A DNA stretch of 64,000 nt from contig NC_008278.1 of assembly GCF_000058485.1 (NCBI RefSeq), positions 4,892,962-4,956,961 on the forward strand, read 5' to 3'. This DNA comes from Frankia alni ACN14a (lineage in GTDB: Bacteria > Actinomycetota > Actinomycetes > Frankiales > Frankiaceae). The notes under the pieces are model-generated. The model worked only from the letters and a program-made list of their open reading frames with translations, was not told the DNA's origin and ran no database searches. The position numbers and the translations under genes were made by a program. Shown here piece after piece: positions 10,887 through 55,067 of this stretch; the stretch's first letter is position 1, and every line of letters starts with the position of its first letter.

Positions 10887-11073
10887 GGCCGGATAGTAGC
10901 CGGCCGACAGACCGCTTCCGGACCGTCCCGGCCGACGACACACACATCCCGGAGGACTGCGGGGAACTGTCACCTCCGCGGTCACCCCTTGGTGGCACTG
11001 CACCCGCGTCGGCACCACTGGCACGCGGTGTCCGGATCCGCTCTCCTTCGTCACGCCGCGGCACTCTCGTGCG

Positions 11074-11216
11074 GTGCGGCGGTGCGGCGGTGCGGCGGTG
11101 CGGCGGTGCGGCGGTGCGGCGGTGCGGCGGTGCGGCGGTGCGGCGGTGCGGCGGTGCGGCGGTGCGGCGGTGCGGCGGTGCGGCGGTGCGGCGGTGCGGC
11201 GGTGCGGCGGTGCGGC
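11074..11216. repeat. 8-nt tandem repeat (GTGCGGCG), about 18 copies
   Basis: Uninterrupted perfect array of an octamer, ending 12 nt before the ATG of the DUF167 gene and about 190 nt upstream of the divergent fabG start. Because 8 is not a multiple of three, the array reads with the same octapeptide-like period in all frames, which generates spurious open frames on both strands. Confidence 0.95.
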
Positions 11217-24522: not shown

Positions 24523-24545
24523 AACGGACATGCACGCTTCAGGCG
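24516..24545. terminator. Bidirectional terminator hairpin overlapping two stop codons
   Basis: Perfect 8-bp arms CGCCTGAA (24516-24523) and TTCAGGCG (24538-24545) flank 14 nt. They include the stop codons of the convergent EgtE-like and DUF222-HNH genes. Confidence 0.6.
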
Positions 24546-38385: not shown

Positions 38386-38604
38386 TCAGGCGCTCTTCTT
38401 CTTGGTGCCCCGGGTCGCACCGCCACGGCCACGCAGGGTCGTGCCGGACTCCGACAGGATCCGGTGGACGAAACCGTACGAACGGCCAGAGGACTCGGCG
38501 AGCAGACGGATGCTCTGCCCACCTTCGTACTTCTTCCGAAGTTCGGCAGCGAGCTTGTCCCGCTCGGCGCCGGTGATCCGGGTTCCTTTCCTAAGCTCGG
38601 CCAA
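38386..38604 (-). CDS. Small HTH DNA-binding protein, Gbn-like nucleoid-associated type
   Basis: 72 residues: MAELRKGTRITGAERDKLA, then the HTH (YEGGQSIRLLAESSGRSYGFVHRILSESG, about 27-55) and a basic tail TTLRGRGGATRGTKKKSA. Size, HTH and tail resemble Streptomyces Gbn (SCO1839), described as a GATC-binding nucleoid-associated protein; the match is from memory. The start is TTG, supported by GGAGGGG about 7 nt upstream and the lack of any other start. It heads an operon with the crotonase-family gene (2-nt gap). Confidence 0.8.
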   Translation of the reverse strand: MAELRKGTRITGAERDKLAAELRKKYEGGQSIRLLAESSGRSYGFVHRILSESGTTLRGRGGATRGTKKKSA

Positions 38605-52825: not shown

Positions 52826-53302
52826 TCAGGTCGCGCGTCGGGCGCGATGGCGGGTGGCGATGCCGAGCAGGATGCCCCAGACCACGAAGTGGGGGTCCCA
52901 GAGGGCGAGATGCCAGTAGAAGGCGTACCAGTCGGTGTCCTGGGCGGCGTCGATGACACCGACGACCACCAACAGTTCGGTCCACACGATCACGCCGCCG
53001 TAACCCACCAGCAGGACGGTGCTCACCCGACCCCAGCGCTGGACCAGGGCGAGCGCGAACATCACGCCCGCGGCCTTGAGCACCACCGCGCCCCACGCCA
53101 GCGCCGACGCGGCGCTGGCGCCGTCGCGGACATGGTCCTCGACGGGACCACCGACCGTGTCGATGCCGACCGTGCCCCCCAGCGCCCAGTAGAGGCTCAC
53201 CAGCGCGAAAAGACCGGCCCAGACTGCGGCGTCGTAGCCGGCCGAGGTCGTCCGTTCCGCCAGTCCCGCCTCTTTCCGGCGTTCCGTCGTCACGTCCAGC
53301 AT
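52826..53302 (-). CDS. DUF3995-like four-helix membrane protein
   Basis: 158 residues. Four hydrophobic helices: AAVWAGLFALVSLYWALGG near 24, AWGAVVLKAAGVMFALALVQ, VLLVGYGGVIVWTELLVVVGV and the last LWDPHFVVWGILLGIATRH. The YWALGG-type start after helix 1 and the DPHFVVWG ending resemble DUF3995. ATG start; the gene seems single. Unknown function. Confidence 0.7.
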   Translation of the reverse strand: MLDVTTERRKEAGLAERTTSAGYDAAVWAGLFALVSLYWALGGTVGIDTVGGPVEDHVRDGASAASALAWGAVVLKAAGVMFALALVQRWGRVSTVLLVGYGGVIVWTELLVVVGVIDAAQDTDWYAFYWHLALWDPHFVVWGILLGIATRHRARRAT

Positions 53303-53458
53303 CAGGCGGTTCCCTCAGCCGCACGGCCTCTCACTGTTCGTAGCATGTCATGTCGCATCGGCACGGCCCATCGGATGGCGAGCCGGCCTGGCCGGAAGGC
53401 GAGTTCCGGCCAGGCCCGTGGCGGGCAACGCCGACGGCGAGACGGCGCGTCCACGCGA

Positions 53459-53685
53459 TCAGCCGAGGAACGGCTGGACGAGCCGGAGAGTCTCCGCCGG
53501 TGCGTCCAGGGGGATGAGGTGGCCGCAGTGGTCGATCAGGGTCCGCCCCGCGGCGGCTGCCGCCGAGACCGCGCAGATCCGGAGCGATCACGCGGTGGGT
53601 CGCGGCGAACTGGGTCAGCACCAGGTTCCACAGGTCGTGCGGGTGTGGCCAGCCGTGCGCCCACGGATCGATGATCTTGTGCCAC
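53459..53685 (-). pseudogene. Alpha/beta-hydrolase remnant with internal deletion
   Basis: On the minus strand an early piece reads HGWPHPHDLWNLVLTQFAA and TTHRVIAPDLRGLGGS-like oxyanion region (codons about 53575-53660). A different frame immediately after it reads GRTLIDHCGHLIPLDAP, then LRLVQPFLG and a stop at 53459, the catalytic-His end of epoxide-hydrolase-like proteins. About 180-200 residues in between (including the nucleophile elbow) are missing, and the frame changes at the junction. An in-frame TAG lies just upstream of the first piece. Confidence 0.7.
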
Positions 53686-53796
53686 TACAGGAGACGGCGC
53701 TCCGTGATGCGCGGCGCGGCGCCGGCGGCAAACGCACCCGGGCTCTGTCAGGGGTCGAGTAGCGCGGCGGCCAGCGCCCTGGCCTGCGCCTCGCCG

Positions 53797-54173
53797 GAAC
53801 ACCTTGATCACGACACGGTTCCGCGGAACACCTTGATCACGACACGGTTCCGCGGAACACCTTGATCACGACACGGTTCCGCGGAACACCTTGATCACGA
53901 CACGGTTCCGCGGAACACCTTGATCACGACACGGTTCCGCGGAACACCTTGATCACGACACGGTTCCGCGGAACACCTTGATCACGACACGGTTCCGCGG
54001 AACACCTTGATCACGACACGGTTCCGCGGAACACCTTGATCACGACACGGTTCCGCGGAACACCTTGATCACGACACGGTTCCGCGGAACACCTTGATCA
54101 CGACACGGTTCCGCGGAACACCTTGATCACGACACGGTTCCGCGGAACACCTTGATCACGACACGGTTCCGCG
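53797..54173. repeat. 13 identical head-to-tail copies of a 29-bp unit
   Basis: Exactly 377 nt (13 x 29), followed by a 7-nt partial copy to 54180. Every junction shows the 12-bp palindrome GTTCCGCGGAAC, and each unit contains TTGATCACGACAC with one GATC. No unit differs from another that I can see, implying recent expansion or homogenisation. There are no spacers, so it is not a CRISPR. The array abuts a hairpin at its right end and a decayed hydrolase gene at its left. Confidence 0.97.
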
Positions 54174-54181
54174 GAACACCT

Positions 54182-54204
54182 GGCCGGGGCCTGGGGCCCC
54201 GGCC
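54182..54204. terminator. 10-bp GC hairpin closing the 29-bp array
   Basis: Arms GGCCGGGGCC (54182-54191) and GGCCCCGGCC (54195-54204), perfectly complementary, with a 3-nt loop. It begins 2 nt after the last partial repeat. It may be a terminator or a cruciform-prone end of the array. Confidence 0.6.
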
Positions 54205-54419
54205 GGTGCCAAGGGGCCGGCTTGGCGAGATGGGCCAGATTCCCAGCTTCCGCTTCTCCGGCGCGCGAAACGCGCTGCCTGTCGCCGCCTTGCCCGGTGC
54301 CGCCGAAATGATGGCGCGATCATGCGCCTGGTGCGTGACGGCCCAGCGTCACGGGCTGAGGGTCGGCGGGCGGGTACCGGCACCGTCCGCTGGTAACGCT
54401 GCAGGTCGAGAAGCGCGAC

Positions 54420-54605
54420 ATCGCCAACCACGGCGACCGGCGTAAGGCTCTCGGCTGGGACGTCGAGCTGGTGAACGTCGAGCTGGTGAACGTCGGGTCG
54501 AACCTTCGCCACCAGTTCGGGGTGAACGTCACGGGACCGCTCGACGGCGGCCCGGTCTGGCCGGACGATGATCCCGGCCAGACCGGCGGCGGCTCGCTGG
54601 GCGAG
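54420..54605 (+). pseudogene. Possible DDE transposase remnant
   Basis: One frame reads NHGDRRKALGWDVELVNVELVNVGSNLRHQFGVNVTGPLDGG-like text with no start. The run HQFGVNVTGPL resembles the segment before the last acidic residue in IS1182-type DDE transposases. An 18-nt direct duplication (gtcgagctggtgaac) lies at 54462-54497. Weak evidence; it may be no gene at all. Confidence 0.25.
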
Positions 54606-55067
54606 TCAGACGTTGAAGCCGAGGGCGCGCAGCTGCTCGCGACCGTCGTCGGTGATCTTGTCGGGGCCCCACGGGGGCATCCAGACCCAGTTGATCGTCA
54701 CGCCGGCGACGAGGCCGTCGGGGCCGTCGACGAGCGCGGAGCGGGTCTGGTCCTCGATGACGTCGGTCAGCGGGCAGGCCGCCGAGGTCAGCGTCATGTC
54801 GAGGGTGACCGTGTTGTCGTCGGCGACGTGGATGCCGTAGACGAGGCCGAGGTCGACGACGTTGATGCCGAGCTCGGGGTCGACGACGTCGCGCATCGCC
54901 TCCTCGATGTCGGCGAACTCGGCGAGCTCCAGGCCCGCGGCCCGCTCCGCGACCGTGGCCGGCGCGATGCCGCCGGCGGCGGCCGCGGGGCCGGTGGCGT
55001 CGGCGGTCGGCGCCGGGCTGTCGCTCGCCGCCGTCTCGGCGCGAGTGTCGGTGACCGCGTCGCTCAT
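54606..55067 (-). CDS. sufT: SufT-type metal-sulfur cluster assembly factor (DUF59)
   Basis: 153 residues. The DUF59/MIP18 domain starts near 50: EEAMRDVVDPELGINVVDLGLVYGI, then LTSAACPLTDVIEDQTRSAL, with the conserved Cys, ending MPPWGPDKITDDGREQLRALGFNV. The N-terminal ~45 residues are Ala/Thr-rich and disordered. It probably delivers or matures Fe-S clusters on apo-proteins. Last gene of the suf operon; its ATGA overlaps the sufU stop by 4 nt. Confidence 0.92.
   Translation of the reverse strand: MSDAVTDTRAETAASDSPAPTADATGPAAAAGGIAPATVAERAAGLELAEFADIEEAMRDVVDPELGINVVDLGLVYGIHVADDNTVTLDMTLTSAACPLTDVIEDQTRSALVDGPDGLVAGVTINWVWMPPWGPDKITDDGREQLRALGFNV

Follow-up and report, generated by a model that had tools for sequence, protein, structure and literature searches.

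According to our analysis, the tandem array found in Frankia alni ACN14a is genuine and homogeneous, made up of palindromic sites, and its unit, as judged by sequence comparison, is the tandem version of an intergenic sequence of about 25 bp that is interspersed through Frankia genomes. The near-perfect arrays of this sequence end in a GC hairpin, its places turn over among Frankia genomes, and its palindrome is linked to one subfamily of DUF222-HNH (13E12-type) genes. The explanation that we favor, giving it somewhat less than an even chance, is that the array is a locally amplified interspersed copy present in variable number, that the sequence is the edge or cognate of this mobile-looking gene subfamily, and that the solitary copies are its scars or targets.

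The window, that is, the whole stretch of 64,000 nt that was analyzed, covers positions 4892962-4956961 of the genome to which we refer as G000 (7,497,934 bp, single contig). As stated in the initial annotation, the array consists of perfect 29-bp tandem copies with the palindrome GTTCCGCGGAAC at their joints: Tandem Repeats Finder returned a period of 29 and a 100% match without indels (Table 1). The unit GTTCCGCGGAACACCTTGATCACGACACG occurs 12 times exactly and in register, compared to 0 times in 100 shuffles of the window; the 13 palindromes are the only copies of GTTCCGCGGAAC in the window, and 13 evenly spaced GATC sites lie in the array. The hairpin behind the array was described correctly as a perfect 10-bp GC stem (arms 54182-54191 and 54195-54204, 100% complementary), but the gap of 2 nt ascribed to it was not found, since the stem starts 1 nt past the last ACACC of the array. 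Pairing is also possible between CACC at 54177-54180 and GGTG at 54205-54208, with a bulged T in between, which would extend the stem. When the whole genome was searched, the 29-mer at up to 3 mismatches was found only in the array (12 matches), while the 16-bp core of the unit has 28 more copies elsewhere; the possibility that the unit recurs at many unrelated places is therefore borne out for the core and not for the full unit.

Table 1. Features of the array and of its immediate surroundings (positions in the window).
Feature	Position	Strand	Basis
Tandem array, 13.3 perfect 29-bp copies; each unit combines the interspersed motif GGTTCCGCGGAACACC-TTGATC with a short linker	53795..54181	+	Repeat detection, exact unit count, logo
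Thirteen palindromes GTTCCGCGGAAC, one per unit, spacing 29 bp	53818..54177		First start 53818, last start 54166
Terminal GC hairpin, stem 10 bp, loop 3 nt; the same kind caps other arrays of the family	54182..54204		Arm complementarity
Extended stem, CACC of the last unit and GGTG behind the hairpin	54177..54208		Possible pairing
Alpha/beta-hydrolase remnant; the gene is intact in G003 and G010 (context only)	53449..53658	-	Alignment and Pfam
SUF-type iron-sulfur assembly gene, FeS_assembly_P, SUF models below cut-off; 3' end towards the hairpin (context)	54606..55067	-	Profile match

The array lies inside a 1.3-kb stretch without called genes, flanked by a DUF3995 gene and by the SUF-type gene. 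The hydrolase remnant noted beside it was confirmed by the related genomes G003 and G010, where some 560 bp separate its two blocks (53449-53539 and 53551-53658) within an intact gene (Abhydrolase_1, E values of 1.4e-22 and 3.2e-22, respectively); the two corresponding ORF fragments in the window matched no Pfam family. CRISPR-type unique spacers are absent, the identical units being contiguous in the array, and a CRISPR was rejected on account of repeats without spacers. An intrinsic terminator was likewise rejected for the hairpin, as no terminator-like site was detected in 53300-54700 and the GC stem is not followed by a T-run. The same interval gave no Rfam family match up to an E value of 1.

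The orthologous locus carries 13 palindromes in G000, 9 in G010, at least 4 together with a 100-base N gap in G009, and one palindrome plus a degenerate unit in G011, and the hairpin follows the repeats in G010, G009, and G011. At the orthologous loci of G003 and G004, no array was detected by BLAST. Because orthologous arrays with other copy numbers are present in related Frankia, G009 and G010 among them, the array is not an artefact, and with tandem units whose number differs among related genomes, as established by comparison between genomes, it can be classed as a VNTR or minisatellite. The units of G009 and G010 each differ from the G000 unit by two bases and are uniform among the matched copies; uniformity within an array together with divergence between genomes is what would be expected from recent local expansion, in agreement with the earlier proposal made on the basis of the identity of the copies.

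The 16-mer GGTTCCGCGGAACACC is present in G000 in 41 exact copies, 13 of which are in the array, and in 14 copies at one mismatch (reversed control, 0); for G004, the counts are 44 exact copies and 25 at one mismatch (control, 0). Tens of copies are interspersed in several Frankia genomes. A 23-base version, searched with up to 2 mismatches, was found in 9 of 13 genomes of the genus (control, 0), while class-wide the exact 16-mer occurs in 9 of 197 genomes, 6 of them in the family of the window and 3 others with one copy each. A logo built from 108 copies with unrelated flanks, those with similar flanks having been removed before both the logo and the GATC count, shows about 25 bp, gcGGTTCCGCGGAACACCawGATC, with little conserved beyond; in its layout, the palindrome GGTTCCGCGGAAC is followed by ACC and, at constant spacing, by GATC. 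Conservation of the first 12 bases in the logo is no result, as they were preset by its search, and the evidence for conservation is instead the short one-mismatch list in G000 (14 versus 41 exact copies). When close pairs of GGTTCCGCGG were sought in all genome contigs, at least 119 stretches were found; among 11 of those listed, 8 belong to Frankia or Parafrankia, and the other 3 resembled repeats of other kinds.

Of the 44 palindromes outside the array in the G000 loci retrieved, 42 lie between genes, as is typical of REP and BIME sequences, in a genome for which the same home-made gene caller gave a coding share of 76% in a 320-kb sample. Forty copies fall into spacers of the classes --, ++, convergent, and divergent in numbers of 17, 9, 7, and 7, where these classes make up 0.475, 0.134, 0.139, and 0.252 of the intergenic length; since the spacer classes track intergenic length, an operator at the promoters of ordinary genes was rejected. 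A phage part was rejected as well, because the 6 matches of the 16-mer in viral contigs are single and no second copy lies around any of them.

The places of the interspersed sequence turn over among Frankia genomes. We followed 21 G000 sites through 70 orthologous stretches in four relatives, with an alignment across the site in 36 of them. Any palindrome was present in 15 of the 70 stretches and in 13 of the 36 in which the alignment crosses the site. The alignments of 11 G000 sites revealed loss, gain, and copy-number change, with no clean 25-bp insertion among the 11 aligned spots; at one site (L112), the G011 sequence resembles a deletion between two copies.

Near-perfect arrays (98 to 100% match, or exact matches) were found at seven loci, whose independence was judged from their flanks: the one in the window, one behind a thiolase gene in G008, where G012 has a single variant unit, and another five that G005 and G006 contribute, three being present in both genomes. 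Their units measure 26, 28, or 29 bp. At an eighth locus (G006, C264), a lone unit ends in a hairpin of the kind seen at the near-perfect arrays. When the array ends were aligned, CACC followed by a GC stem was present in 15 of 15 and the closing GGTG in 14 of 15, while stem length varies, an A-T pair replaces a G-C pair in G006 (C244), and a mismatch occurs in G005 (C425). According to our own reading of the gene calls, the hairpin lies towards a gene 3' end at 7 of the 8 loci. A search for the array end plus hairpin as a pattern gave 12 places in 6 of 35 genomes of the family, against 3 control matches, and 9 of the 12 are the array ends described above. Looser clusters in G004 (L443, read without its tail, and L445), G007 (L446 and L447), and G008 (L440) show no such hairpin, which argues against the hairpin cap as a general rule. 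As a separate observation, an array in F. nepalensis (L176, about 2422-2633) has a 25-bp unit, GGTTCCGCGGAACGTGATGATCGTT, and adjoins a palindromic GC stretch.

The link to a gene family is apparent from dispersed copies that have more than 1 kb in common on their right side, a segment that encodes a DUF222-HNH protein; in one such pair (L091 and L121), the left edge of the shared segment lies sharply at the palindrome. Among the listed DUF222 matches, the core is present within 700 bp upstream in 5 of 22 in G000 and 2 of 17 in G004 (total matches, 24 and 18, respectively), compared to means of 0.09 and 0.11 and a maximum of 2 in both genomes when 5,000 random placements were subjected to the same test. 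In order to avoid circularity, we also assembled 54 DUF222 loci from the family search without regard to the site (30 returned by it directly, 4 of 9 regions, and 20 more), and assigned to the subfamily those with a score of 130 bits or more against the type protein (L305:5168-6571), a threshold set after the scores had been seen, with all others at 84 bits or less. The palindrome GTTCCGCGGAAC lies within 600 bp upstream in 12 of 15 subfamily loci of this sample versus 0 of 39 other DUF222 loci (Fisher p 1.3e-9). The three subfamily loci without an upstream copy are L473, a weak partial match whose upstream sequence is present without the palindrome; L477, whose genome, G002, does not have the dispersed motif; and L299 (G007), which has the full GTTCCGCGGAACACC at position 1222, inside the DUF222-HNH reading frame. 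L462, in which the copy comes to lie 31 bp inside owing to a decayed gene start, was not counted as a carrier, and L296, outside the subfamily, carries GTTCCGCGGAGCACC. Over all subfamily rows, 22 of 26 have the upstream palindrome, although 11 of these rows were found through the site and one locus appears twice (L144 and L393).

The palindrome stands 69 to 581 bp from the gene, and a second copy lies behind the stop codon in 4 of the 20 rows with enough sequence, two of which are orthologous, leaving three independent loci. The DNA between site and gene has diverged, while the link to the subfamily persists across many loci; nevertheless, the linkage could be due to common descent of the subfamily, with no recognition involved. 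An HNH motif was found by pattern in 11 of 20 subfamily loci, with its Asn replaced by R, Q, or K, whereas the other DUF222 loci with an HNH motif (3 of 6) have the Asn. This replacement makes cutting doubtful, and a protein that binds without cutting is possible. Comparison of the DUF222-HNH protein to solved structures gave nothing significant; IscB and a maturase were matched weakly by its HNH part and NAC alpha by another part, and in NCBIfam the HNH part matched IscB far below cut-off.

Most solitary copies and the arrays, including that of the window, have no adjoining DUF222 gene. In the window, a DUF222-HNH gene occupies 24539-25924 (77 bits to DUF222), with no palindrome nearby. One emptied locus was seen, in G004 (L408), where 363 bp replace the 1,981 bp present in G009 (L467); it is imprecise, with 85 bp of the element kept and no palindrome at the spot, and neither an empty target nor a solitary scar turned up in clean form.

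In the explanation that we favor, the HNH protein would recognize the palindrome and break or nick the DNA there, and repair, with other copies as templates or through single-strand annealing, would spread the sequence and let arrays lengthen or shorten, with their ends at the hairpin. If the copies on either side of a gene recombined, the gene would be lost and a solitary site would remain. A more specific form of this proposal, which we regard as doubtful, is that GTTCCGCGGAAC is the recognition sequence of the 13E12-type DUF222-HNH protein, the two making up a minimal homing-like pair, and that the solitary sites and the hairpin-capped arrays, the latter a composite element of their own, are traces of its spread. 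Homing endonuclease systems combine an HNH-type gene with a short DNA target, and the Frankia genes resemble them in having a short candidate target adjoining an HNH-type gene, but differ in that no clean empty target was found, the HNH Asn is replaced, and cutting is putative.

Actinobacterial genomes contain DUF222-HNH (13E12-type) genes in repeated copies, and we know of no target assigned to them. If the proposal is true, GTTCCGCGGAAC would be, to our knowledge, the first recognition sequence for this actinobacterial family. Occurring with one subfamily and not with the other DUF222 loci examined, the palindrome offers a 12- to 16-bp probe for binding and cutting assays, and the arrays lend themselves readily to typing strains and to studying the growth and shrinkage of hairpin-capped repeats in GC-rich chromosomes. 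For the mycobacterial REP13E12 (13E12) elements, we know of neither a short interspersed cognate sequence nor a tandem array. The Frankia DUF222-HNH genes are like these elements in being repeated and mobile-looking, but in Frankia there are several DUF222 groups, of which the subfamily is one, and its HNH Asn is replaced. REP13E12/HNH/DUF222 is named among the repetitive elements of Mycobacterium tuberculosis in the portion of PMC10589994 consulted.

Among the alternatives, it seems unlikely to us that the sequence is the site of a host dimeric regulator or nucleoid protein, serving as an operator that silences the DUF222-HNH genes, with the other copies and the arrays as structural or decoy sites. 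Such a role would suit a perfect palindrome of 12 to 16 bp, which is of the operator type, the sharp limits of the 25-bp logo, the scarcity of one-mismatch copies, and the position of the palindrome mostly upstream of DUF222-HNH genes, twice in several loci; however, the copies track intergenic length and not promoters, their distance to the gene is variable, some lie after the stop codon, and their places turn over.

REP and BIME sequences of enterobacteria and pseudomonads are short, palindromic, intergenic, present in many copies per genome, and sometimes clustered. All of this holds for the Frankia sequence, and its turnover also fits a REP-like non-autonomous repeat that is moved by some other enzyme and was acquired by the DUF222-HNH genes in one ancestor. 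We nevertheless consider this reading improbable, given that the link to one subfamily extends across many loci despite diverged DNA between site and gene. The Frankia palindrome further differs from REP and BIME sequences in being perfect and loopless, with an asymmetric GATC tail, and the arrays in being head-to-tail and perfect, with a separate hairpin.

In VNTR or MIRU minisatellites, perfect tandem units vary in number from one relative to another, as they do here, and a plain minisatellite, in which a harmless spacer sequence with neither function nor partner protein undergoes replication slippage and unequal crossing-over, would account for the perfect identity inside the array, for units that differ between arrays, and for the decayed surroundings. 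It is quite unlikely in our view, as it leaves the interspersed copies, the conserved core, the common hairpin cap, and the gene linkage unexplained; a unit that is also interspersed, and near-perfect arrays at unrelated loci with a common hairpin cap, set the Frankia case apart from such minisatellites.

We hold it to be highly improbable that the array loads a protein for nucleoid organization or segregation, such as an HTH protein of the Gbn type acting at GATC sites, as had been suggested in the initial annotation. The HTH protein invoked there is indeed encoded at 38386-38604; it is a 72-aa HTH_58 protein (107 bits), similar in size and type to Streptomyces Gbn, and orthologues of Gbn in Frankia are reported in the part of PMC9239103 consulted. 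It also matches the CRISPR-repeat-binding protein Cbp1 weakly, far below cut-off. According to the same part of that report, Gbn prefers GATCWT, of which it binds thousands of sites in Streptomyces, and binds plain GATC more weakly. Although the GATC sites of the array are evenly spaced, its unit contains GATCWT on neither strand, and the unit of the G008 array is without GATC. On the other hand, GATCWT makes up 67 of 96 GATC-bearing motif copies versus 80 of 609 intergenic GATC sites; as the copies are related repeats, this excess amounts to about one coincidence of one in eight and is a lead only. Gbn loading at the array is thus weakly supported.

The position of the copies was studied in the two complete genomes, G000 and G004, after merging sites within 1 kb and with dnaA as the origin marker, because the parS-type pattern TGTTTCACGTGAAACA, at up to 1 mismatch, was absent from both (G002 has one imperfect site). 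In G000, 16 of 37 motif loci crowd into 3.3-4.2 Mb, opposite dnaA (scan p 0.0002), which would fit protein loading, whereas the 56 loci of G004 show no crowding (Rayleigh p 0.42) and polarity is absent from both genomes (21 of 37 and 29 of 56, respectively). A segregation, terminus, or strand-guide site was rejected on these grounds and because the places turn over, and the comparison to iterons or centromere-like sites made at the outset finds no support either, with copies all round the chromosome.

In the literature on Frankia repeats and palindromes and on 13E12/DUF222, nothing was recognized as the repeat of the array, although the supplementary table of PMC4447401, a report that, in the part consulted, counts palindromic and tandem repeats in ACN14a, may include it. 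The window contains a second perfect tandem array, at 11071-11216, with 18.2 copies of the 8-bp unit GCGGTGCG at 100% match.
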